Origin: Halalkalirubrum salinum
Lineage (GTDB): Archaea; Halobacteriota; Halobacteria; Halobacteriales; Haloferacaceae
DNA: 34,479 nt
Assembly: GCF_005543295.1 (NCBI RefSeq)
Contig: NZ_SRSG01000025.1
Span: 1 to 34,479, forward strand
Direction: 5' to 3'
How positions within the stretch are numbered: position 1 is the first letter of the stretch; every line of letters starts with the position of its first letter. Below the pieces are notes generated by a model. That model saw only the letters and a program-made list of their open reading frames with translations. It did not search any database and was not told where the DNA came from. The translations under genes and the position numbers were made by a program. This document shows, piece by piece, positions 2,907-22,894 of this stretch.

Positions 2907-5021
2907 TTACTCGACCAGTTCGCTCCCGCCTGCGGGGAGAAACTCTTGGATCTGATCGGGACTTGCGACCTTTCGGACAAACGTCTCGTCTGCGAACATC
3001 TCTCGAAGCTCGCGGTAGCAGATCTTCGCAATGTCGTTTTGGGCGTACTTGCCCGGCTGCAGCCGCAGCGTCGCCTCCGCGTGAGCCTCGATCGGCTTCG
3101 GCGGGCCGCCCACCACCCGCGTTTGTGGTTCACACTGGATTCCAACCGCGACACCGACCGGAACGTCGTCGAAGTAGGTTCGATCGCCGCGGATCACGAA
3201 CGACCCCTTCTCGATGTATTCGCCGCTCTCTGGGGTCTTCGAGACCTGATCGGGACGAACCATGTACACATCACCGGAAAATCGGCTGTCCTTCCAGACC
3301 GACGAGTACGAAACCGCGAACTGTGCGGCTTCCTGTAGCGTTGAGTCGGGAAAGTCGATATCCTTTGCCGGTTCGCTTGGGCCGGTCGCTTTGAGGATCG
3401 TGACTGGCGCGCCGTGTGCCTGTGTGTGGAAGAACCGATCGCCCTTGCTCATGTATTTTTTGACGAGCGCCTCGTTGTCGTCGGCGTTGCGCCCGCCAAT
3501 TACAAGGAAACCGTCGCTCGTGTGGAACCACCGGAACCGCTCGTACCACTGCTCGTTTCTGCGAACCGGAACCGACCGCATCGATCGCCAGTCGGTCGGT
3601 TCCTGGTCTGCGTCGTCGTCTGACTCGTCTTCGTCGTCCGCATCGTCGGCTTCCCAGGCGTCTCTTCGCGCTTTGATCGCTTCGAGCTCCTCGCGGGTGT
3701 TTTCGATCGCCTGTTTTGCCCCTTCCTTTTTTTCCTCGATTCGCTTGGCTTCTGTGTAGAGCTTGTCGGCGTTCTTTTCGACGCCGGTCGTCGCATCGAG
3801 GGAAACTGTCGTCCCGTCGATCCTGACAGTCACTGTCCCCGTGGAGCCGTCGACGCCGACGACCGCTTCCGCGGCGTCTATCCCCGCCTCGGCTGCCTCC
3901 GTGAGTGTTTCGTCGATCGTGTCCCATGGAACACCGTCCGCACGCGCATCTTGGATGGTGCTGAGAATCTCGTCGACGAGATCGTATCGCGCGTAGATCA
4001 GTTCGGCCTTTTCGCGTTCGGCGGCTGCTTGCTCGTCGAAGCTGTCGATCGCGCCCTCCTGTTGGTCGATGATTCGCTGTTGTTTGGCGATCTTGGCCTC
4101 GAAATCCGGACGATTCGAGCCGCCCGTGTCCTGGGTTTCTTTGTCGTCACTGCGATCGAACCGGAAAAAGTACTCGTCGACTGCATCGTTGAACGAATCG
4201 AACGCCTCGCTGTCGAACGAATCAGATTCGTGTTCTTCCAGCGGGAACGGCGTCACGTCGACGACCCGATCGGCTTCGAGGTAGACCCGTGGGTCAACGT
4301 CGCCCGATCGGAGTCGTACCGAAAGCTCCTCGAGTGCGTCGTACACGGCCTTGTAGACCGCTTCGTCGGCTTCGTCGATCGAGAGCTCTTTTTCGACGCC
4401 TGCGCGGGTACAGACCTCCTCGGCGTACTGTCCGCCGAGATTGAGCTGGGTTGCGAGGGTTCGAACGACATCACTCGTCGACTCGTCCATTTGCCGGACG
4501 AACGCCTCGTAGCTCACGTCAAGCGGATTGAGCCGGGAGGCGGGATACTCGTACTGCGCCCCGGGGGCGACTGTCCGGGATTTGAGCCGAACCGTCTCAA
4601 GCGACTGGACAACATCGCCGTGTTCGTCCAGGACAGCGACGTTGCCCTGCCCGAACAGTTCGGCGACGATCGTCGTGTTCGCGTCCGGGCGCTCGAACTC
4701 GAATCGGAGGATGCGATCGAACTCGTACTGGCTGACGCCGGCGAAATCAGCGCCGCTCAGGCGGTTTCGAAGCATCTTTGCGAAGTTCGGCGGCCGACCC
4801 GGCGCGTCTGCGACGTGGTCGGGATCGGCGACGTGCGCGCGTTTTATCTCACCGACTTCGATCATGAGCTCGATCCGGCCGCGATCGAAATCCCGCATCC
4901 GCAACCGCAGCAACGAATCGCCGTAGAGATAGGCCTTGTCGACCTTCGCGCCCTCGTAGCGACCGAGCTCGGTCACGAGGGCGGCGAGGTCGATGCTCGA
5001 AAGCTCCCGCTTTGGATCCAT
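2907..5021 (-). CDS. rqcH: RqcH (Rqc2/NEMF) ribosome-associated quality-control protein
   Basis: RqcH binds the large ribosomal subunit carrying a stalled peptidyl-tRNA and recruits tRNA to add a C-terminal tail. The 704-residue protein has the family layout: NFACT-N domain (1 to about 180) with MLRNRL and GQGNVAVLD; an HhH and helical middle region; coiled-coil helices (about 305-345 and 415-455) separated by a small insert; an acidic linker (458-475); and the NFACT-R domain (about 491-610) with FRWFHTSDGFLVIGGRN. Asp102-Arg103 in EFDRILRF match the Asp-Arg pair required for tailing in bacterial RqcH, so tailing activity is likely. I chose the ATG at 5021 (MDPKRELSS) because it begins the conserved domain; the frame stays open 15 codons further. 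The gene is divergent from the ZIP transporter. Confidence 0.92.
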   Translation of the reverse strand: MDPKRELSSIDLAALVTELGRYEGAKVDKAYLYGDSLLRLRMRDFDRGRIELMIEVGEIKRAHVADPDHVADAPGRPPNFAKMLRNRLSGADFAGVSQYEFDRILRFEFERPDANTTIVAELFGQGNVAVLDEHGDVVQSLETVRLKSRTVAPGAQYEYPASRLNPLDVSYEAFVRQMDESTSDVVRTLATQLNLGGQYAEEVCTRAGVEKELSIDEADEAVYKAVYDALEELSVRLRSGDVDPRVYLEADRVVDVTPFPLEEHESDSFDSEAFDSFNDAVDEYFFRFDRSDDKETQDTGGSNRPDFEAKIAKQQRIIDQQEGAIDSFDEQAAAEREKAELIYARYDLVDEILSTIQDARADGVPWDTIDETLTEAAEAGIDAAEAVVGVDGSTGTVTVRIDGTTVSLDATTGVEKNADKLYTEAKRIEEKKEGAKQAIENTREELEAIKARRDAWEADDADDEDESDDDADQEPTDWRSMRSVPVRRNEQWYERFRWFHTSDGFLVIGGRNADDNEALVKKYMSKGDRFFHTQAHGAPVTILKATGPSEPAKDIDFPDSTLQEAAQFAVSYSSVWKDSRFSGDVYMVRPDQVSKTPESGEYIEKGSFVIRGDRTYFDDVPVGVAVGIQCEPQTRVVGGPPKPIEAHAEATLRLQPGKYAQNDIAKICYRELREMFADETFVRKVASPDQIQEFLPAGGSELVE

Positions 5022-5087
5022 ACACAGTGGTCTTCGGCGGTAACCAAAGGGCGTTCGGATGTCCACCCAACCGTGAACTGTGCAACC

Positions 5088-7044: not shown

Positions 7045-8706
7045 TCACAGGTACGTGCTCACGTACGGCCCGTCCTGGTGATAGCCCAGCTTCTTGCGGT
7101 AGTATTCGCGGACGCCGATCCCCGAAATAACGCTCAGTTTGTCGTAGCCGGCTTCGCTCGCGAGCTCCTCTGCACGGGCGAGGAGCCGTCGTCCGTAGCC
7201 TTTGTGTTGCCACTCGCGATCGCCGACGTCTGCGCCGATCCCTGCTTCGCTCCCGTAGACGTGGAGTTCGCGGACGATCGCTGCGTCCTGGAGCTCTCGC
7301 CGCACCGGATCGCCCGGGAACCGGAGCCGACAGAACCCAATCAAGAGGTCTCGAACGGGGTCTTCGAAGCTGATGAAGTGTTCGGTGCCGCCACAGACCG
7401 AATAACGCTCCACTGAGAGCTCGATCGCCTCAGGATCGGGGTCTTCGTCGTTCATGCCGACCTCTCGGGATCGAATGTCGCGGATCTCAATCCCGCGCGC
7501 TTCGGCGCGCTGTTCGGCCAACTGCCGGAGGTTCGACTTCCAGACGCCGGCGTCGATGAAGTCCGCGGGGATATCTCGCTGGACGCGCTGCAGACGGGTG
7601 TACTCGGGGATCATGCCCATGACCTCGGCAACGATATCGGCTGCTGCCTCGTTGTCGAGTGGTTCGTACTCGCCGCGATACCACTCGTCGTACACCCGGG
7701 TCCCGCGGACGACGAGCGTTGGGTAGATCTTGAGGTAGTCGGGGCGGAAATCGTCGTTCTCGAAGAGCTGTCTGAAATCTTCGAGGCACATTTCTCTGGT
7801 CATTCCCGGCTGGCCGGGCATCATATGAAACCCTACCTTGAACCCCGAATCGCGGAGTCGCTGGTTCGCGTCGATCGACGCCTGTGTGCCGTGCCCGCGG
7901 TGCATCTCGCGGTTGATCCGTTCGTAGGTCGTCTGGACGCCGACCTCGACTTTCGTCCCGCCGAGATCGAGCATACGATCGATCTGCTCGGGGTCACACC
8001 AGTCGGGCTTCGTCTCGAAGGTCGTCCCGATGTTTCTGATGTCTGCAGTTTCATTTTCGGCAATTACGTCCTCAAGGTAGCGGAACTCGTAGTTCTCCGG
8101 ATCCTCTGCGAAGCTCACCTCCTCGGCTGGCTGTGGCTCGGCGTCGAGGTCGTAGTCGTTCATCGCCTCCAGTGCGCGCTTGACGAACCACTCCTGGTAG
8201 TCGTGGCTCCGGGCAGTCATCGTCCCGCCCATGAGAATCAACTCGGCCTTGTCGACGGGATGGCCGATCTGTCGCAGCTGGTGGAGTCGCAGTGTCACCT
8301 GTCCGTAGGGATCGTAGTCGTTCTGTTTCCCGCGTGCGGCGGCGGGTTCGTGGCCGGTATAGCTTTGAGATGACGAGAAATCACTGGCCGGCCCACCCGG
8401 ACAGTACAGGCACTTGCCGTGCGGGCACATATGTGGGGAGGTCATGATCGCGATCGGCGAGACGCCAGACGCGGTGCGCACCGGCTTGCGTCGGACGACC
8501 GTCTTGACCGCTTCGCGGCGATCCTCTGGCGCGAAATCGAGTAGCTCGGTGTTTTTCGGAACTTTCGGGGAAGAGAACTCCGAACACGCTGATAGCTTCG
8601 CGGACTCCAGATCGTCGCGGTCGATCTCGCCGGCTACGATACCCTCGACGATCGACTCGCAGGCCTCGCGGAACGCTCGGCTCTCGGATTCGGCCTCCGA
8701 ACTCAT
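7045..8706 (-). CDS. elp3: Elp3-type tRNA U34 carboxymethyltransferase (radical SAM plus GNAT)
   Basis: Archaeal Elp3 acts alone to place a carboxymethyl group on wobble uridine 34 of tRNAs, using acetyl-CoA and SAM. The 553-residue protein has the expected order: a basic N-terminal tRNA-binding segment; a radical SAM domain with the cluster cysteines Cys94, Cys99 and Cys102 in MCPHGKCLYC; further conserved blocks (LILMGGTM, VEVGVQT, KIYPTLVVRGT); and a C-terminal GNAT acetyltransferase domain ending with HKGYGRRLLARAEELA and GVREYYRKKLGY. All key motifs are intact. The start at 8706 (MSSEAESES) fits the family length; the frame stays open 18 codons further. The gap to the next gene upstream is about 100 nt. 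Confidence 0.96.
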   Translation of the reverse strand: MSSEAESESRAFREACESIVEGIVAGEIDRDDLESAKLSACSEFSSPKVPKNTELLDFAPEDRREAVKTVVRRKPVRTASGVSPIAIMTSPHMCPHGKCLYCPGGPASDFSSSQSYTGHEPAAARGKQNDYDPYGQVTLRLHQLRQIGHPVDKAELILMGGTMTARSHDYQEWFVKRALEAMNDYDLDAEPQPAEEVSFAEDPENYEFRYLEDVIAENETADIRNIGTTFETKPDWCDPEQIDRMLDLGGTKVEVGVQTTYERINREMHRGHGTQASIDANQRLRDSGFKVGFHMMPGQPGMTREMCLEDFRQLFENDDFRPDYLKIYPTLVVRGTRVYDEWYRGEYEPLDNEAAADIVAEVMGMIPEYTRLQRVQRDIPADFIDAGVWKSNLRQLAEQRAEARGIEIRDIRSREVGMNDEDPDPEAIELSVERYSVCGGTEHFISFEDPVRDLLIGFCRLRFPGDPVRRELQDAAIVRELHVYGSEAGIGADVGDREWQHKGYGRRLLARAEELASEAGYDKLSVISGIGVREYYRKKLGYHQDGPYVSTYL

Positions 8707-8805
8707 TGTCTGTCTATCACCACGGTTCGCCGATAAGGGTGTCGCTCGGCGATCGAACAAACAGAGCCTATTCGCTGTCTCACCGAAGATTGTCGGCGAT
8801 CGAGC

Positions 8806-10923
8806 TCACTCGAGCTGGTCGGCGATCGCGTCGAGAACAGCGTCTGTGACTGCGTCCCGGCGACCGGCGAGGAACTCGATTCGTCCCTCGCGGACGCCGA
8901 CTGCGGTTACGTCCGCGTCGGGAACTGCCTCGGCGGCCGCTGCGGCGACCTGCCGGACGTCGATCGGGTGCGTGCTCCGGATGAACAGCTCGTCGGTCCC
9001 GAGCCCAACAGTAACGAACGAACCGTCGTTACGTTCTCGTCGGTGGATCTCATCGAGCAACAATCCAGTCGGCGGGAAGTCGAACCGGTGGGTGTATGCG
9101 TCCGTGTCGATGAGGGCTAGGGTAGTTTCGCCGCGCGATTCTGTTTCGAGGTGGGCGGTTGCCGTCTCGAACTCCGTTTCGAGTTTTTCATCAAACTGGT
9201 CGGCGATGTGACCCGCGAGACTGCCCGAGTCCTCAAAGAGGAGGTCCGTGACGAGTTCGCGTTTGTCCTGGTAGGACTGGTAGTACGCTTCGAGTGCGAT
9301 CGCCGCACGCAGGTCAGCAACAGCCGCTTCGTCGTAGCCAGCCTCCGCAGCCAGTTCGAGGTACGCCTCAGGTGCGTTCTCCCAGTAGCTGACCGCGGGG
9401 AGGTGGCTCACGTCATCACGAATCGAGTCGTTGACGGCTGCGGCGACGTTCGCCGCGAGCGATCCAGTCGACGGATCGGCATCGCCGGTCCCGTCGCCGC
9501 TCGGGGTAACGAGCAGATCGACAACGCCTGCCAGGCCCTCGTCGACCGCGCCGCCGTCAACGACGATCCGTTCAGCTCCGTACACGTCCAAGAGGCCGAG
9601 GCCATCTTCAGACTCGACGGTACTTGCGGTGCCGAGGAAGACGAAAAGCGGAATCTTCTCGTCGTGGCGATCGCGGTCCTGCAGCATCCGCGTCGCGTCG
9701 TTCGTCGCCGCGTTCATCCCGTACACCGCGTCATCAAGTGGCCGACGGGTGAAGTAGTGGTATTCGGCGTCCGATCGAGCGTGTTCCTCGCGGATCAGCG
9801 GCAAAACGGCGTGTTCGAGCGCTGCACCGGCGACGTAGCCATCTGCGCTTGCCGGATGGCGGACGACGATCGGCCGGGACTCGAAGACTGCGGTTCGAAT
9901 CGCCTCAGCAGTGTCGAGAAGTTCTTCGGCGATGTCGACGACCGCAACGTTAGCCGCGAGCGGTTTCAACGCCTCCGGGCGGGCGCGATCTGAGAGTGCA
10001 TCCGAGAGCCGCGATGTGACCGCCTCGTGGTCTTCGCCGTCGAGTTCGACGAGGGCACTCGTTTCGACCTGCAGATCACCACGGCGTGTCTCGACCTCGC
10101 CGTCGAGACGGACGATCGAATCGACGTCGACCTCGGGGTACGCACGGACACCGGCCTCGACGAACGCCGCACAGTCAACGACACCCGTCTCGTCGCGGAG
10201 TTCGAACACGGTCGGGCCACCGGTCTGTCTGGCACCGACGACTTCGCCTTCAATCCGAACGGTCTCACCCACTCTGTCTCCGAGCGAACTGATTTCGACG
10301 CGCTCTGTTGGTTCGGACTCGGTCGTTTCTGTGTGACTTTGGGTTTCGGCACCGCCGCCAGCAGTCGCGGCAACGGCCGTTCGCTCAGCTGTCTCGCGGT
10401 CCGAATCGTCTCCACTGCTGTCTGATCCCTTGGTCTCGTCGTCTACAACAGACGAGTCGTCAATGTCCGAGTCTTGTGAGTTGCTGGCCCCGTCCGAACC
10501 GCTCGATTTGTCTGATTCCTCGGCTGCGTCTGATTCTTTGTTTCTATCAGGTTTGACGTCTGTCGATCCCTCCTGGATCAGCGATCCCCGGAACTCGCGA
10601 TCGGCCTGCCGAATCGACCAGCCGAGGTCGATGTTGCCGTTGTCGCGAACGTTCTTGACCTGGACGTACACCGAGTCGCCCGGTTCCCACTCTAAGCTCT
10701 CTAAGCGGCGATCGAGTTCGCTTCGGTGCAACAGCCCCGTAACGCCTGGGGCGATGTCGATGAAGACGCCGAAGTCGGCGTAGCCGTCGACCGTGCCGCG
10801 ATAGAATCGGCCGGGGACGAGTTGGTTTGCGTGATTACCTCTGAATTCGAAGACGACGTCTTCCTGGTGGCTGTCACAGATGTGGCCGTCGACAGGAGCG
10901 CCGCAGATGATACATGAACCCAT
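8806..10923 (-). CDS. RecJ/Cdc45-like protein with zinc finger, S1 and OB domains, DHH motif lost
   Basis: The 705 residues read in order: a short zinc finger (Cys4, Cys7, His14, Cys16, His19); an S1 RNA-binding domain (about 37-105, GTVDGYADFGVFIDI); a long Asp/Ser/Glu-rich linker (about 120-205); an OB-fold (about 208-295, VRIEGEVVGARQTGGPTVFEL); and a DHH-superfamily region (about 345 to end). Family members are RecJ-like single-strand nucleases, the GINS-associated nuclease, or inactive Cdc45. Here the first motif is HPASADG (356-362), and the position of Asp-His-His reads VVDGG (454-458), so metal-dependent catalysis seems lost or strongly altered. A role as a replisome or RNA-binding scaffold is an inference. 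The start follows TTTTAG at about -27. Confidence 0.8.
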   Translation of the reverse strand: MGSCIICGAPVDGHICDSHQEDVVFEFRGNHANQLVPGRFYRGTVDGYADFGVFIDIAPGVTGLLHRSELDRRLESLEWEPGDSVYVQVKNVRDNGNIDLGWSIRQADREFRGSLIQEGSTDVKPDRNKESDAAEESDKSSGSDGASNSQDSDIDDSSVVDDETKGSDSSGDDSDRETAERTAVAATAGGGAETQSHTETTESEPTERVEISSLGDRVGETVRIEGEVVGARQTGGPTVFELRDETGVVDCAAFVEAGVRAYPEVDVDSIVRLDGEVETRRGDLQVETSALVELDGEDHEAVTSRLSDALSDRARPEALKPLAANVAVVDIAEELLDTAEAIRTAVFESRPIVVRHPASADGYVAGAALEHAVLPLIREEHARSDAEYHYFTRRPLDDAVYGMNAATNDATRMLQDRDRHDEKIPLFVFLGTASTVESEDGLGLLDVYGAERIVVDGGAVDEGLAGVVDLLVTPSGDGTGDADPSTGSLAANVAAAVNDSIRDDVSHLPAVSYWENAPEAYLELAAEAGYDEAAVADLRAAIALEAYYQSYQDKRELVTDLLFEDSGSLAGHIADQFDEKLETEFETATAHLETESRGETTLALIDTDAYTHRFDFPPTGLLLDEIHRRERNDGSFVTVGLGTDELFIRSTHPIDVRQVAAAAAEAVPDADVTAVGVREGRIEFLAGRRDAVTDAVLDAIADQLE

Positions 10924-11019: not shown

Positions 11020-11640
11020 CTACAGTTGCCGGAGTGAAAGCAGCCCGGCGGCGGCTTCAATCCCGCCAAAGGCCCATCCGAAGACGATCGCTGCCGGCAG
11101 GAATCCGACGATCGACGCGGTGCCAATTGATATCCGATGGACGGTCGAGAGCCCGACAACGAGCAGCGACGCGGCGTATCCAACCGCAAGAAACTGCAGC
11201 GGCGCAATGGGAATCCACGCGATCGCACACGGCGCGGTCGCGTAGGCGATCACCTGCACCGTCTCGGAAACGCCCGCTCGATCGTCGACGGTCACCATCA
11301 AAATGATCGTCTGGAGAGCTGCCATGAGGTGCAATCCCAGCGGGGCGATGAACACCGCAGTCACCAAGACGACAAGCAGTCCAGAGAGTGCAACGCTGTC
11401 TGCGACGAGCGGGAACCACCCATTGTCGCCGAGGATATCGAATGGTGAGACCGCGAGCGTCCCGATCGTGTAGACCACGGCGATTGTCACCACGAACGTC
11501 AGCCCCGGCTCTTGGTCCCCGGGCGCAACCGCCTCAACAAAGAACTGCCGGGGATCGACGATCGCGCCGACCCACGCGCGGGCCAACCCAGTCGGCCCGC
11601 GATCACGACCCTCCCGTGGTGATTCGACCCAAGTTGTCAC
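11020..11640 (-). CDS. Yip1-family membrane protein
   Basis: This 206-residue protein resembles prokaryotic Yip1/YIF1-domain proteins: a short cytoplasmic N-terminus with VDPRQFF, then about five hydrophobic helices, with a conserved-looking ETVQVIAYATAP segment between the third and fourth. The function of prokaryotic members is unknown. It lies between thymidine kinase and the RecJ-like gene on the same strand, with gaps of 120 and 96 nt, so it probably has its own promoter. The 120-nt gap at 11641-11760 contains several CGATCG sites and no gene. Confidence 0.78.
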   Translation of the reverse strand: MTTWVESPREGRDRGPTGLARAWVGAIVDPRQFFVEAVAPGDQEPGLTFVVTIAVVYTIGTLAVSPFDILGDNGWFPLVADSVALSGLLVVLVTAVFIAPLGLHLMAALQTIILMVTVDDRAGVSETVQVIAYATAPCAIAWIPIAPLQFLAVGYAASLLVVGLSTVHRISIGTASIVGFLPAAIVFGWAFGGIEAAAGLLSLRQL

Positions 11641-13484: not shown

Positions 13485-14714
13485 TCATCCATCGAACTCG
13501 TCGACGCGAGCCTGCACGCCGTGGTGGGTGATCTCGCTGATAAGTCCCTCGCCGCTGTCGATTCCGAGCTCGGCCGCGGCGATCCGCCCGACCCGATCGG
13601 TCTGCGCTGCTGTGGTATACACACCGAGACGCCACTGGCGCTCCTGTGCGATCCGAAGCGTCTGGACGAGCGGAGACTGCTCGCCGAGCGATCGAACCTC
13701 ACCGTTGACCATCACCCGCGAGGTCGACTCGCGCATCGACGGGCGGGCTGGCACGTCGATAACGACGTCGGTTTCTGGCACATCGGCCCGATCGGCGATC
13801 GTCTCTTCGAGTTCACTGAGACGGGCGCGATCGGCATCGACGATCGAATCTGGAACCGCGTCCATCTCTGCCCAGATCGCCCGCTTGAGGAGGTCGCGGG
13901 TGTCGTACCGCCGGGCAAACGTCTCAGTCTCTGGGGTGTGTCGCAGCGCAACCAGCAGATCGTGATCGTCCATTCGTCGAAGCTGTGCCGCGGTGGTATC
14001 GGTCGATTCCAGCAGCCGCTCGCTGGCTCGTCGAAGCATCGCCTTGCTTATTCGGGCGACCGGGTGGGTGTAGACGGTCGGATTCATGAGCGCCCGAGCC
14101 AAAAGGAGACTCTCTGCGGTCTGGACGTTCCCCTCGTCGAGAACGAGTTCACCGTCGACGAACCGGAGTTCACGGATGAGCCGCTCGCTGTCGATCGTCC
14201 CGTAGGGGACGCCGGTGTGGTGGGCGTCCCGAACGAGGTAGTCCATTCGATCGACGTCGAGTTCGCCCGAGACCAACTGTCCATATGTTCCTTCTCCGGC
14301 GATCAATCCCGCGATGTAGTCCGGATCGAGGTCGTGCTCTCTGAGGACGTCACCAACTTCCCCCTGTCTGAGCAGTTCGGTGACGTCGTCGTGGTATTTT
14401 CCAGTATAGCGGTGGGTCAACGATTCGATGTTGTGGCTGAACGGCCCGTGGCCCACGTCGTGTAACAGCGCCGCTGCGGTCAGCCGATCGGCGTGTTTGC
14501 CCTCGATGCCGAGGTGATCGAGCGCGCGATCGGCGAGATGATAGACGCCGAGGCTGTGCTCGAATCGGGTGTGGTTCGCTGAGGGATAGACGAGCTGGAC
14601 CGTCCCGAGCTGTTTGATGTGACGCAGGCGCTGCAGCGCCGGGGTGTCGAGGAGGGCCTCGGCCACGCCCATCACGTCGATGTGGTCGTGAACGCTGTCT
14701 TTGATCGTGGCCAT
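13485..14714 (-). CDS. HD-domain phosphohydrolase, SAMHD1-like (paralog 1)
   Basis: The 410-residue protein of the dNTPase/SAMHD1 type has an HD metal site His53 (RFEHSLGVYHLA), His85-Asp86 (ALLHDVGHGPFSH) and the later Asp in VDRMDYLVRDA. Family members hydrolyse dNTPs to nucleosides plus triphosphate, or act on other nucleotides, usually as oligomers with allosteric nucleotide sites. The C-terminal half (about 270-410) is less conserved. It is strikingly similar to the next gene upstream, including VYPSANHTRFEHSLGVYHLA and AESLLLARALMN, so the two are a tandem duplication. I chose the ATG at 14714 (MATIKDS) because the paralog begins MAPIKDS; an in-frame start two codons earlier is possible. 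Confidence 0.9.
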   Translation of the reverse strand: MATIKDSVHDHIDVMGVAEALLDTPALQRLRHIKQLGTVQLVYPSANHTRFEHSLGVYHLADRALDHLGIEGKHADRLTAAALLHDVGHGPFSHNIESLTHRYTGKYHDDVTELLRQGEVGDVLREHDLDPDYIAGLIAGEGTYGQLVSGELDVDRMDYLVRDAHHTGVPYGTIDSERLIRELRFVDGELVLDEGNVQTAESLLLARALMNPTVYTHPVARISKAMLRRASERLLESTDTTAAQLRRMDDHDLLVALRHTPETETFARRYDTRDLLKRAIWAEMDAVPDSIVDADRARLSELEETIADRADVPETDVVIDVPARPSMRESTSRVMVNGEVRSLGEQSPLVQTLRIAQERQWRLGVYTTAAQTDRVGRIAAAELGIDSGEGLISEITHHGVQARVDEFDG

Positions 14715-14735
14715 TGTCACTCGTTGGGACGGCTT

Positions 14736-14762: not shown

Positions 14763-14798
14763 TTTGTTCTCAGCTCACTATTTGTTCTCAACTCACTT
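14763..14798 (+). repeat. 18-bp imperfect tandem repeat at the stop of HD paralog 2
   Basis: TTTGTTCTCAGCTCACTA (14763-14780) and TTTGTTCTCAACTCACTT (14781-14798) are adjacent and differ at two positions. The second copy includes the stop codon of the upstream HD gene. This is the second small duplication at a gene end in the window. Confidence 0.75.
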
Positions 14799-15983
14799 GG
14801 TGACTGCGAGCCCGAACTGGTCGATCGCCGCCTCCCGAACTGAATCAACGGATGCTTCAGGCGCGTAGACGCCAAGCCGCCACTGCGCACGCTCGGCCGC
14901 CCGGAGCGCGCCAACGAGTTCGGAGGCGTCCTCAAGCCGTTGCACGACGCCGTCGACGACGACACGCGTCGCGGACTCTTTGATCTGCGGTCGTGGCGGA
15001 ATGTCGACGATCACCTCGGTTTCGGGGACGCCTGCCTGTTCGGCGATCGCCCGTTCGGCGTCGCGTTCTTCGGACCTGTCGAACGCCATGATCCCCGCGG
15101 GCACGGATTCGATCCCGATCCAGACTGCTCGCTTGTAGAGCCGCCGGCGTTCGATCCGCCGGCCGAGCGCCGGAACGTGCTCTCGCAGGGCGACGAGTAG
15201 GTCGTGATCGGACAGCCGGCGAAAGTGCTCGATCGACGGCCCCGCGTCGTCGTCGACCAACTGCTCGCAGGCCCGCTCAAGCATCGCCCCGGCAATCCGG
15301 GAGACGTGGTGTCGATAGACGGTCCCGTTCATGAGCGCACGGGCCAGAAGGAGGCTCTCTGCGGTCTGCACGTTGCCCGCCTCGAGGACGAGTTCGCCGT
15401 TGACGAACCCCAACGCCCGCAGGAGTCGGCCGTGGTCGATCGTGCCGTAGGGGACGCCGCTGTGGTGGGCGTCCCGAACGAGGTAGTCCATTCGATCGAC
15501 GTCGAGTTCACCCGAGACCACCTGCCCCAACTCACCCTCTCCGCGAACGAGTGCTGCGACGCGATCGCGGTCAATTCCGTGGGTTTCGAGCACCTCGCCA
15601 ACCGTTCGTTCGTCCGACGGCCGCGGTCGGTCTGGCTTCAGCAGGTCTGTGATTTCGTCGTGATCGCGGCCGGTATGACGGTAGATGAGGTCCTCTGTCT
15701 GGTGGCCGTACGGGCCGTGACCGATGTCGTGCAACAGGGCGGCCGCCCGGACGTGCTCGCAGCGATCGTCCTCAATTTCGAGATGCGTGAGTGCGCGATC
15801 GGCGAGATGATAGACGCCGAGGCTGTGTTCGAAGCGGGTGTGGTTCGCCGAGGGATACACCAATCTGACCGTCGATAGCTGTTTGATGTGGCGCAAGCGC
15901 TGAAACGCGGGCGTATCCACAAGTGCCTCTGCGAGCGGATCCAACGAGATGTAGTCGTGCACGCTATCCTTGATTGGGGCCAT
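14793..15983 (-). CDS. HD-domain phosphohydrolase, SAMHD1-like (paralog 2)
   Basis: The 396-residue paralog of the downstream gene has the same catalytic set at the same positions: His53, His85-Asp86 and the Asp in VDRMDYLVRDAHHSG. All metal ligands are intact, so both copies should be active. It differs by a longer, charged segment after the HD helix pair (DLLKPDRPRPSDERTVG) and a divergent C-terminal half, which could change the allosteric or substrate site. The two copies are separated by 78 nt. The ATG at 15983 has a TATA box about 26 nt upstream and is divergent from the PhoU-TrkA_C gene. Confidence 0.9.
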   Translation of the reverse strand: MAPIKDSVHDYISLDPLAEALVDTPAFQRLRHIKQLSTVRLVYPSANHTRFEHSLGVYHLADRALTHLEIEDDRCEHVRAAALLHDIGHGPYGHQTEDLIYRHTGRDHDEITDLLKPDRPRPSDERTVGEVLETHGIDRDRVAALVRGEGELGQVVSGELDVDRMDYLVRDAHHSGVPYGTIDHGRLLRALGFVNGELVLEAGNVQTAESLLLARALMNGTVYRHHVSRIAGAMLERACEQLVDDDAGPSIEHFRRLSDHDLLVALREHVPALGRRIERRRLYKRAVWIGIESVPAGIMAFDRSEERDAERAIAEQAGVPETEVIVDIPPRPQIKESATRVVVDGVVQRLEDASELVGALRAAERAQWRLGVYAPEASVDSVREAAIDQFGLAVTK

Positions 15984-18894: not shown

Positions 18895-20715
18895 TTACTC
18901 GATCACGACCAACACGTCGCCCATGTCGACGCTGTCTCCTTCGGCGATTGTGACCTCGGTCACGGTCCCACCGCGCTCTGTCGTGATATCGTTTTCCATC
19001 TTCATTGCCTCGAGCACACAGACGACGTCGCCGGGCTGGATCTCCTCTCCTTCTGTGACCTCGACTGAGAGGATCGTCCCCTGCATCTCCGCAGTCACTG
19101 TGTCACCGGCCCCTTCGTAGCCGCCAGAGTCCTCTTCTTCAGTCGTTTGTGCCTGCGGCGGTCGAGTCTGTCGACCGCTCGCTCCGCCTGCGCCCGACGG
19201 CAGCGGCGGCGCGCCACGCTCTTCGAGCGAGACATCGAAGCGCTTGCCGTTGACCTCGACGGTGAACTCGCGTTCTGTCACCTCCTCATCCTCATCGTCA
19301 TCTTCAGTCGCTGACGTGCGGTCGCCCCACTGCTCGACCGCCTCGGCAATCCGGGTCCGATCGAGCTCCTCGTCGAGGTATTTTGTCGTGTGCGCGCCGG
19401 TAATAAATGCCTCGTCAGTGAGCATGAGCCGATGGAACGGGATGATCGTCGGGAATCCCGAAATATCAAACTCCGCGAGCGCTCGCTCCGAGCGGGCCAG
19501 ACACTCGTCTCGATCGCCTGCGCTGACGATCAGCTTCGCGATCATCGAGTCGTAATCCGTAACGAGATCGTCGCCCTGTCTGATCGCGTCGTCCATCCGG
19601 ACGCCGATTCCGCCCGGCGGGTCGTACGTCTCTGCGGTCCCGCCAGTTGCCGGCGCGAACTGCTTGTCGGCCATTTCGGCGTTGATCCGGAACTCGATCG
19701 CGTGCCCGTCAAACTCGACGTCGGACTGCGCGAAAGACAGCTCCTCACCCGCAGCAACCCGAAGCTGCCACTTCACAATGTCGAGTCCTGTGATCTCTTC
19801 GGTCACGGTGTGTTCGACCTGGATCCGGGTGTTGACTTCCATGAAATAGAAATTACCGTCGTCGTCACCAGCACCCTCCTCGACGAGGAACTCAACAGTT
19901 CCGGCGTTTGTGTACTCCGCAGCCTCGACGCCGCGCTTTGCGGCCTCGCCGATCTGCTCGCGCATATCATCTGTCAGCGCGGGCGAGGGTGCCTCCTCGA
20001 TCACCTTTTGATGACGCCGCTGCAGCGAGCAGTCACGCTCGCCGAGATGTCTGACGTTTCCGTGATGATCGGCGATGATCTGGACTTCGATGTGTCTCGG
20101 CGACTCGAGGTACTTTTCCACGTAGACCGAGGCGTTATTGAAGTACGCTTCCCCCTCGCGTTTTGCGGTTTCGAGTTGCTCTTCGACCGCTGACTCGTCG
20201 TGGACGACTTTCAGCCCTCGGCCACCACCGCCACCCTCGGCTTTGATCGCGACGGGATAGCCGTACTCTTCGGCAACCGCTTTGACTTCCTCGGATGATT
20301 CGACCGGTTCGGTCGTTCCTGGCACGACCGGCACGTCCGCCTCTTTCATGAGCGCGCGCGCTTTCGTTTTCTCCCCAAGCGCCTCCATCGCCGCCGCAGC
20401 GGGGCCGACCCACGTGAATTCGCTCTCCTCGACCGCAGCCGCGAACGCAGCGTTCTCTGCGAGGAAGCCGTATCCGGGATGAATCGCGTCTACGCCGGCC
20501 TTCCGGGCCGCCTCGAGGATCGACTCCTGATCGAGGTATGAGTCCGCCGCGCGCGCGGGACCGACGTTGTATGCCTCGTCGGCGTAGCGGACGTGCCCGC
20601 TGTGTTTGTCGGCCTCGCTGTAGACGGCGACGGTCCTGATGCCGAGCTCTTCGCAGGCCCGAAACACCCGTACCGCGATCTCCCCGCGGTTCGCCACCAA
20701 AACCTTACTGAACAT
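18895..20715 (-). CDS. pccA: Acetyl/propionyl-CoA carboxylase alpha subunit (biotin carboxylase plus BCCP)
   Basis: Carboxylates its own biotin with ATP and bicarbonate, then hands CO2 to the beta subunit. The 606 residues have the expected parts: the biotin carboxylase N-domain ([20 protein letters not shown]), ATP-grasp with [14 protein letters not shown], the catalytic [16 protein letters not shown], a Pro/Gly/Gln-rich flexible linker (about 515-545), and a biotinyl domain with EAMKMEN, where Lys572 is the biotin site. The length is typical of haloarchaeal PccA. It is the third gene of a minus-strand operon (B, X, A) with a 95-nt gap upstream. No biotin ligase gene is nearby. PCC or a bifunctional ACC/PCC is possible. 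Confidence 0.94.
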
Positions 20716-20810: not shown

Positions 20811-21101
20811 CTAGAACCGGTCGCGACGCCCGCTCGCGGTCCAGGCATCTGTGGGCGCTGATCGCGGGACGCGGCGATTCGTTCCCCCATCAATCAACGC
20901 AATTCGGCCGGCGAAGCTCCACCGCTTGCCCTCCCACGATTCTGGCTCCTCGTCGGCCGCAGCGGCCGCGAGCTCCAGATCGCGAATGTGGGCGGCGATC
21001 GCTGCTATCACCGCTGCAGCCTCGTCTTCGGTGGCCGCATCGAGCCCGTCGATCTGGCTGACGCCCTCGATTTCTTCGGGTGCGATCGTTCCGGGCGACA
21101 T
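20811..21101 (-). CDS. pccX: PccX-type small subunit of the acyl-CoA carboxylase
   Basis: The protein has 96 residues: a helical N-terminal half (about 21-50, [20 protein letters not shown]) and a C-terminal half containing [15 protein letters not shown] and a basic tail. Haloarchaeal propionyl-CoA carboxylase (described in Haloferax mediterranei) has a third small subunit, PccX, encoded with PccA and PccB. Position and size match, and the WEGKRWxFAGR block resembles the epsilon-like subunits of actinobacterial acyl-CoA carboxylases. The start overlaps the pccB stop by one base (TGATG), so translation is probably coupled. Identification rests on context and general shape more than on a catalytic motif. 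Confidence 0.82.
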
Positions 21102-22645
21102 CAGATTGGGATATTGCCGTGTTTCTTTTCGGGCATCGATTTTCGCTTGCTCATGAGCATCTCGAGATCATCGATCAGCCGTTTGCGTGTTTCTGGCGGT
21201 TCGATCACGTCGTCAACGAAGCCACGATCCGCGGCGGTGTAGGGGTTCGCAAACTCGGCTCTATACTCGTCAATGAGTTCCTGTCGGCGCGCATCCGGGT
21301 CGTCGGCGTCCGCAAGTTCGCGGCGATACAACACGTTCACCGCGCCTTTCGGCCCCATTACGGCGATTTCGGCAGTCGGCCACGCGTAGTTGACATCGCC
21401 GCCAATGTGTTTCGAGGACATGACGCAGTACGCGCCGCCGTAGGCTTTCCGCGTGATGACGGTCAAAAGCGGCACAGTTGCCTCCGAGAACGCGTACAGC
21501 AGTTTCGCGCCGTGACGGATGATTCCGCCGTGTTCCTGATCGGTCCCCGGCATGAACCCGGGCACGTCCTCAAACGTGACGATCGGGATGTTGAACGCGT
21601 CACAGAATCGGACGAATCGTGCGCCTTTCTGGGATGCCTCGATGTCGAGCGTCCCGGCATTAACTCGCGGTTGGTTTGCGACGACGCCGACCGATCGGCC
21701 GTCTAGCCGGGCAAATCCGACCACGATATTCTTCGCGAAGTTCTCGTGGACTTCGAGGAACGAGCCCTCATCGAACACCGCGTCAATCACGTCGGTCATG
21801 TCGTAGGGCTTTCGGGGCTCGTCAGGGACGATCTCTGACAGTCGATCTGGCTCGCGATCGGGATCGTCCCACGGTTCGACCCGGGGTGGGTCCTCGACAT
21901 TGTTCTGTGGAAGGTACGACAAAAGTAGCGCAATCTCGTCGAGTGCCTGTTCTTCGGAGCGTTCAGCGAAGTGTGCCACACCCGAGGTCGACGAATGGGT
22001 GACTGCGCCGCCGAGTTCCTCGAAAGAGACCTCTTCGCCGGTGACGGTCTCAATAACGTCTGGACCGGTGATGAACATGTGGCTCGTCTCCTCGACCATG
22101 AAAATGAAGTCGGTGATCGCCGGCGAGTACACCGCACCGCCGGCACAGGGGCCCATGATTGCCGAAATCTGTGGAATCACGCCGCTGGCCTCGGTGTTTC
22201 GTCGAAAGATTTCCGCAAAGCCGGCAAGGGAGGCCACACCTTCCTGGATCCGCGCGCCCGCAGAGTCGTTCAATCCGATAACGGGAGCGCCGACGTCCAT
22301 CGCTTTGTCCATCACTTTACACACCTTTTCAGCGAAAACCTCCCCCAGCGAACCGCCGAACACAGTGAAGTCGTGTGCGAAGACGAATACAGTGCGGCCG
22401 TTGACCTCACCGTAGCCGGTTACGACCCCGTCGCCAGCAAGCTGTTCTTCCTCCATACCGAATTTGTGATTCCTGTGGGTTCGGAACTGATCGAACTCGT
22501 GGAATGTCCCATCGTCAAGGAAGTAGTTGATCCGCTCGCGGGCGGTCTTTTTGCCCTTTTTGTGTTGGGATTCGATTCGATCCTCGCCGCCACCCTTCTC
22601 GGCGGCTCGACGTCGGTTTCGAAGGTCCTCGATCCGATCGTCCAT
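21101..22645 (-). CDS. pccB: Acyl-CoA carboxylase beta subunit (carboxyltransferase)
   Basis: Moves the carboxyl group from biotin to propionyl-CoA (or acetyl-CoA), making methylmalonyl-CoA. The 514-residue protein has both crotonase-like halves: the N-terminal oxyanion-hole region [13 protein letters not shown] and the C-terminal [19 protein letters not shown] and [15 protein letters not shown]. In bacterial enzymes the residue after GGAY helps choose the acyl-CoA (Asp in PccB, a branched residue in AccB). Here it is Cys407, so specificity cannot be assigned by that rule. It is the first gene of the operon. The ATG at 22645 (MDDRIED) is preferred; a GTG two codons earlier (22651) is possible. 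Confidence 0.94.
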
Positions 22646-22894
22646 CGTCACCGCGAACCACCCGTCATTGTCCGTAACCGAGTACCAGATGCGGCAAAAG
22701 CGTTCCGCAATCGGCTGTTGTGTGGTTCGACAACTGTCGTATTCTCTTGCAGCATCTGTGTAGAGTCAACTGCCACAGCGGCATATGTTGACGTTTGATT
22801 GTCAAATTAACCAAAGAAAATGATAATTTGTTACAAAAATTTCGCGGAATCAAGTGGTCAGGCTTATGAACGATGAATAGAGTAGTGGGAGCCA
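22646..22894. promoter_or_regulatory. Divergent intergenic region of pccB and the SNF transporter
   Basis: About 250 nt with no gene. The AT-rich half (22795-22850) can carry the pccB promoter, which would give that transcript a long leader. For the transporter, CTTATGA at 22863-22869 is centred about 29 nt before its ATG and suggests a leaderless start. I see no strong inverted repeat. Confidence 0.45.

Follow-up and report, generated by a model that had tools for sequence, protein, structure and literature searches.

The window analyzed here is a stretch of 34,479 nucleotides from Halalkalirubrum salinum, and its minus strand encodes a 705-residue protein whose frame opens with an ATG and closes with a stop at position 8806 (Table 1). 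A first-pass annotation of the raw sequence had recorded this frame without stating its strand; the frame is indeed present where it was placed and belongs to the minus strand, the plus-strand reading of the same interval being rejected because stops interrupt it. The N-terminus carries C4, C7, C16 and H19, which are spaced as in a putative zinc finger, and is followed in order by an S1 domain, an acidic linker, an OB-fold and a degenerate DHH/DHHA1 region. The S1 domain, acidic linker and OB-fold named in the first-pass annotation are thus all recovered, along with its zinc finger as a putative feature, although for the 705-residue protein no match to Pfam DHH was listed up to E=1.

Table 1. 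Features of the recJ4 locus, with residue numbers referring to the 705-residue protein
Feature	Residues	Position in window	Strand	Basis or remark
recJ4 (HVO_2889 orthologue), degenerate HAN-family protein	705 aa	8806..10923	minus	NCBIfam, PDB and genome searches, motif alignment
Putative zinc finger C4-x2-C7 ... C16-x2-H19	4-19	10867..10914	minus	sequence, alignments
S1 RNA-binding domain	38-100	10624..10812	minus	Pfam PF00575, E=2.4e-8
Acidic disordered linker	114-208	10300..10584	minus	net charge -19, pLDDT, dN/dS
OB-fold	222-287	10063..10260	minus	Pfam PF01336, E=1.7e-11
Degenerate DHH/DHHA1 region	302-702	8818..10020	minus	aligned to PfHAN 5yh1
Motif I remnant RHPASADG	355-362	9838..9861	minus	retains the second Asp (D361) but neither the ligand His nor the first Asp
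Motif III (DHH) remnant VVDGG	454-458	9550..9564	minus	Asp kept, both His lost
Elp3, radical SAM and GNAT		7045..8760	minus	neighbourhood survey; 45 bp downstream of recJ4, co-directional
Yip1-domain membrane protein		11020..11640	minus	neighbourhood survey; upstream of recJ4, co-directional

Sequence searches assign the protein to the branch of RecJ-like proteins that comprises HAN (Hef-associated nuclease; arCOG00429), outside the GAN/Cdc45 branch. The NCBIfam profile HAN_nuclease (NF053577) matches residues 199-702 with E=3.5e-109 and 366 bits, a score below the 840-bit equivalog cut-off of this profile, which sets the protein apart from the active HAN nucleases; with 1079 bits, the RecJ3 encoded in this genome exceeds the cut-off. 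The best match by sequence in the PDB is the DHH domain of Pyrococcus furiosus HAN (5yh1, E=4.7e-43), which is again the best match of a RecJ4 profile (E=7.9e-73). With the HANs, including PF0399, the Thermococcus kodakarensis HAN and the haloarchaeal RecJ3, it shares family, fold and domain order; these are active 3'-5' exonucleases with intact HxDxDG, DNG, DHH and GGGH motifs, whereas RecJ4 has lost them. Named Haloferax orthologues of RecJ4 (L102, L104, L110, L112, L135 and L139) are 56-63% identical to the window protein, in alignments that cover most of it or its C-terminal two thirds. Taken together, sequence, fold, domains and neighbours identify the ORF as the Halalkalirubrum salinum copy of RecJ4.

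In common with the H. volcanii RecJ4 (HVO_2889) this copy has the S1 domain, the long disordered acidic linker, the OB-fold and a degenerate DHH/DHHA1 region that lacks the active-site residues. The linker between the S1 domain and the OB-fold has a median length of 119 residues in RecJ4 as against 20 in RecJ3. The two orthologues differ in that their identity is about 57% and in that the window protein retains the N-terminal CxxC...CxxH, which was missing from the Haloferax RecJ4 copies examined. Because the latter are without these cysteines, RNA binding or partners of the window protein may differ in detail from those of Haloferax RecJ4. At the 5' end, RecJ4 of Haloferax and several allied genera apparently begins with MDWITHEEDVWF or a sequence much like it and lacks the N-terminal cysteine finger (L102, L104, L107, L109-L112, L116, L123, L127, L129 and L130, the upstream region having been checked in L102 and L110 only).

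Across 80 named RecJ4 loci, some of which end at contig ends, Yip1 is found in 75, Elp3 in 39, always downstream and co-directional, and RqcH in 26, and all three are conserved as neighbours of RecJ4 in Haloferax (L102). A minus-strand gene at 2907-5066 of the window encodes an RqcH/NEMF-like ribosome quality-control protein with NFACT domains, whose gene keeps close to RecJ4 and Elp3 in other genomes too, Haloferax among them. Elsewhere the Halalkalirubrum genome encodes an intact RecJ3 (C24:36303-38129), one aRNase J scoring over the cut-off (C26:204692-206026) and one ERCC4-nuclease protein of 904 residues that is consistent with Hef, and no match to the exosome subunit Rrp41 was found in it.

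A search with the HAN_nuclease profile recovered one match over the cut-off, RecJ3, in each of 145 Halobacteria genomes, and one further, weaker match, RecJ4, in 144 of them. The sole exception is genome G021, in which RecJ3 and Elp3 were found and RecJ4 was not detected; this assembly of 1.9 Mb in 120 contigs is the only one of its family in the set, and the apparent lack of RecJ4 could reflect either a true absence or an assembly gap. The RecJ3 of G021 (locus L169) is itself divergent and branches outside the other haloarchaeal RecJ3 proteins. Genomes of the phylum other than Halobacteria generally have a single HAN, and a RecJ4 profile revealed no RecJ4 in the 22 such HAN-bearing genomes that gave any match; what it hit in each was the one HAN ORF, broken into pieces that sometimes lay on different contigs. 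Phylogenetic analysis unites the RecJ4 proteins, including those of Haloferax and others, as a monophyletic group with 100% support and a stem of 1.62 substitutions per site. In the best tree this long branch falls outside all other sampled Halobacteriota HANs, a placement in which long-branch attraction is likely to have played a part; the AU test did not reject a Halobacteria-specific duplication with RecJ4 as the sister of RecJ3 (p=0.40 with G021 and 0.25 without it). Accordingly, RecJ4 might have arisen either by duplication in the stem of Halobacteria or earlier.

An AlphaFold2 model built from 43 aligned RecJ4 sequences has a mean pLDDT of 83, with residues 127-202 of the linker predicted to be disordered (pLDDT<50). 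Its best match in the PDB by fold is again PfHAN 5yh1 (E=2.2e-31, TM 0.83 normalised by target, 27% identity over the fold alignment), after which the TM values (by target) drop to about 0.3-0.56 for the matches ranked next, namely bacterial RecJ, RecJ2 from the archaeon M. jannaschii and GAN/RecJ-Cdc45. Since HAN leads the fold search and GAN/RecJ-Cdc45 falls far below it, the fold of RecJ4 is of the HAN-type DHH/DHHA1 variety rather than that of GAN or Cdc45, and the fold comparison with GAN and Cdc45 called for in the first-pass annotation goes against placing it in their branch. That annotation had described the protein as a possible haloarchaeal Cdc45-like scaffold, of which the inactive, probably scaffolding component agrees with published work (PMC10470531) and the Cdc45-like component, taken as membership of the GAN/Cdc45 lineage, is not supported, the protein being of the HAN family and its gene non-essential in H. 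volcanii.

The corresponding reading, in which RecJ4 would be the haloarchaeal equivalent of Cdc45/GAN and serve as a dead RecJ in a structural role in the MCM-GINS helicase, draws on the fact that RecJ4, like Cdc45, combines a RecJ fold and an active site that looks dead; Cdc45 is likewise regarded as non-catalytic and shares the DHH superfamily fold. It can also appeal to an interaction study of H. volcanii Cas1 that recovers RecJ3, RecJ4 and RNase J along with MCM, although this is weak co-purification evidence (PMC9051519). However, GAN and Cdc45 belong to a separate branch (arCOG00427/00428 and Cdc45, as against arCOG00429) of replisome subunits, and both sequence and fold of RecJ4 are far closer to HAN. 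GAN has a CID and a motif V that are absent in HAN (PMC5717133), and published HANs do not bind GINS (PMC5717133, PMC7776575). Moreover, H. volcanii can do without recJ4 (PMC10470531), which would not be expected of a core replisome subunit. With family, sequence, fold and neighbourhood all against it, we reject membership of RecJ4 in the Cdc45/GAN group, and an equivalent role in the helicase is very improbable.

The neighbourhood argument stems from the earlier placement of the haloarchaeal GAN orthologue, arCOG00428 (RecJ2), beside S15/S3 by Makarova et al., who described for it an independent inactivation of RecJ in Halobacteria (PMC3307487). The S15/S3ae neighbourhood is not found at the recJ4 locus, where the neighbours are Yip1, Elp3 and RqcH; in this genome it is occupied by a separate degenerate protein, a 407-residue ORF on the minus strand (G000:C24:51131-52354, equivalent to L205:2132-3355) between the genes for S3ae (E=7e-83) and S15 (E=4.2e-23). 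Neither Pfam nor the PDB matched this ORF, and its one hit, to the NCBIfam profile RecJ_archaeal, fell below threshold (E=0.007); its position together with this weak match suggests that it is likely to be the RecJ2/arCOG00428 protein. RecJ2 and RecJ4 would then both be predicted inactivated versions of RecJ in haloarchaea, with RecJ2 having been inactivated independently within the GAN branch, and its candidate being shorter and without the Zn/S1 region. Distinguishing these two degenerate proteins leaves RecJ4 as a pseudo-nuclease of the HAN branch, and points to the RecJ2-like gene beside S15/S3ae as the better candidate for a haloarchaeal Cdc45.

The state of the active site was assessed from an alignment of the window protein with PfHAN, 31 haloarchaeal RecJ3 and 110 RecJ4 sequences, the latter drawn from two collections in which species may overlap, so that the counts are only partly independent. 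We scored eight residues, namely the H, D and D of motif I, the D of motif II, the D, H and H of motif III and the D of motif IV, all of which are kept in each of the 31 RecJ3 proteins. The window protein lacks intact versions of the HxDxDG, DNG, DHH and GGGH motifs of active HANs. Instead of the intact RHHADGDG, MLDNGS, VIDHH and GLSDRS it has RHPASADG, FLGTAS, VVDGG and SYWENA, respectively, and the GGGH of DHHA1 is lost; only D361 and D456 remain of the eight. The sequences HPASADG (residues 356-362) and VVDGG that the first-pass annotation had noted at the first motif and the DHH position are thus genuine, and the comparison across haloarchaeal paralogs that it had proposed bears out its impression of a RecJ relative with a dead-looking nuclease fold, the same deficit recurring throughout the RecJ4 set. 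Among the 110 RecJ4 sequences one of the eight residues is kept in 5, two in 56, three in 46 and four in 3. The ligand His and first Asp of motif I and both histidines of DHH are lost in every one, and the motif II Asp in 105. As judged from the alignment columns, active-site loss is hence predicted to be common to all RecJ4 sequences examined.

The residues that persist might suggest that RecJ4 is still catalytically active and binds metal through displaced or non-canonical ligands: D361 is conserved in 106/110 sequences, D456 in 107/110, and the motif IV column has Asp in 49/110. The near-universal presence of D361 and D456 may leave a single weak metal site. Against this, even the most complete RecJ4 copies retain no more than half of the motif residues, the losses include ligands missing from the whole set along with the GGGH motif, and the activity of HAN depends on a motif I Asp, as seen with D366A (PMC5717133). 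We therefore consider an active RecJ4 hardly credible.

The degenerate region is nonetheless maintained by selection. Comparison with the nearest named relative, from halophilic archaeon SHRA6 (L064), gives an overall dN/dS of 0.10, with 0.02 for the N-terminal/S1 part, 0.06 for the OB-fold, 0.08 for the DHH/DHHA1 region and, highest, 0.38 for the linker; RecJ4 is under purifying selection that extends to the dead nuclease region. Because the same degeneration is seen across 110 RecJ4 sequences and is accompanied by purifying selection relative to L064, it reflects neither chance nor sequencing error. The notion of a decaying pseudogene, for which the long stem branch and the lost motifs might speak, is contradicted by these results, by the frame being open over its 705 residues, by 129 invariant positions across 43 diverse RecJ4 sequences and by the near-universal presence of the gene in Halobacteria, and retains practically no credence.

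Published evidence bears on the function of RecJ4. H. volcanii possesses RecJ1-4, and a complex purified from it contains RecJ3, RecJ4 and aRNase J at 2:2:1, the association of RecJ3 with aRNase J requiring RecJ4; the latter was termed an 'apparent scaffold', and its region 104-236 was described as disordered (PMC10470531). Both recJ3 and recJ4 are dispensable for growth of H. volcanii and important after treatment with phleomycin, which causes double-strand breaks (PMC10470531); the non-essentiality of RecJ4 has also been noted elsewhere (PMC7776575). That RecJ4 lacks the active site was reported in 2020 and again in 2023 (PMC7776575, PMC10470531), and it has been treated as non-catalytic on the ground of the absent residues. 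Recombinant RecJ4 from E. coli was inactive, but RecJ3 and aRNase J produced in that host were inactive too, so that this result is non-decisive (PMC10470531). The arCOG00429 proteins had earlier been said to have an active DHH domain (PMC3307487), to which RecJ4 is a later-recognised exception. The copy described here is therefore an ordinary one, both the inactivity of RecJ4 and its part as a scaffold having been described before.

In light of these observations, RecJ4 is very probably a haloarchaeal paralogue of RecJ3 that has lost the metal-binding site and acts as a non-catalytic partner or scaffold for RecJ3 and aRNase J. It would pair with the active RecJ3, as it does in H. volcanii in equimolar amounts and within an assembly of roughly 560 kDa, probably through contacts of the DHH/DHHA1 fold, and would recruit aRNase J, probably via the long acidic disordered linker, a contact that was suggested and left unmapped in the original report (PMC10470531). 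The assembly would function as a 3'-5' exonuclease on RNA and ssDNA, restrain or redirect aRNase J in a lineage without the RNA exosome, and aid recovery from DNA double-strand breaks. The same complex can be expected in Halalkalirubrum salinum, which encodes all three partners. The presence of one RecJ3 and one RecJ4 in 144 of the 145 Halobacteria supports the published view of the RecJ3/RecJ4-aRNase J complex as a lineage-wide assembly in the absence of an exosome. That RecJ4 additionally docks this complex at the replisome or at stalled forks, as a second dead-RecJ scaffold resembling Cdc45 in action and not in lineage, has at best a slender chance of being correct.

Two further gene pairs were observed on the minus strand of the window. 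Adjacent HD and HD_assoc_2 phosphohydrolase-like genes at 13485-14720 and 14793-15983 probably arose by tandem duplication, and the genes at 18895-20715 and 21101-22651, encoding a biotin carboxylase with a biotin carrier domain and a carboxyl transferase, constitute an acyl-CoA carboxylase gene pair.
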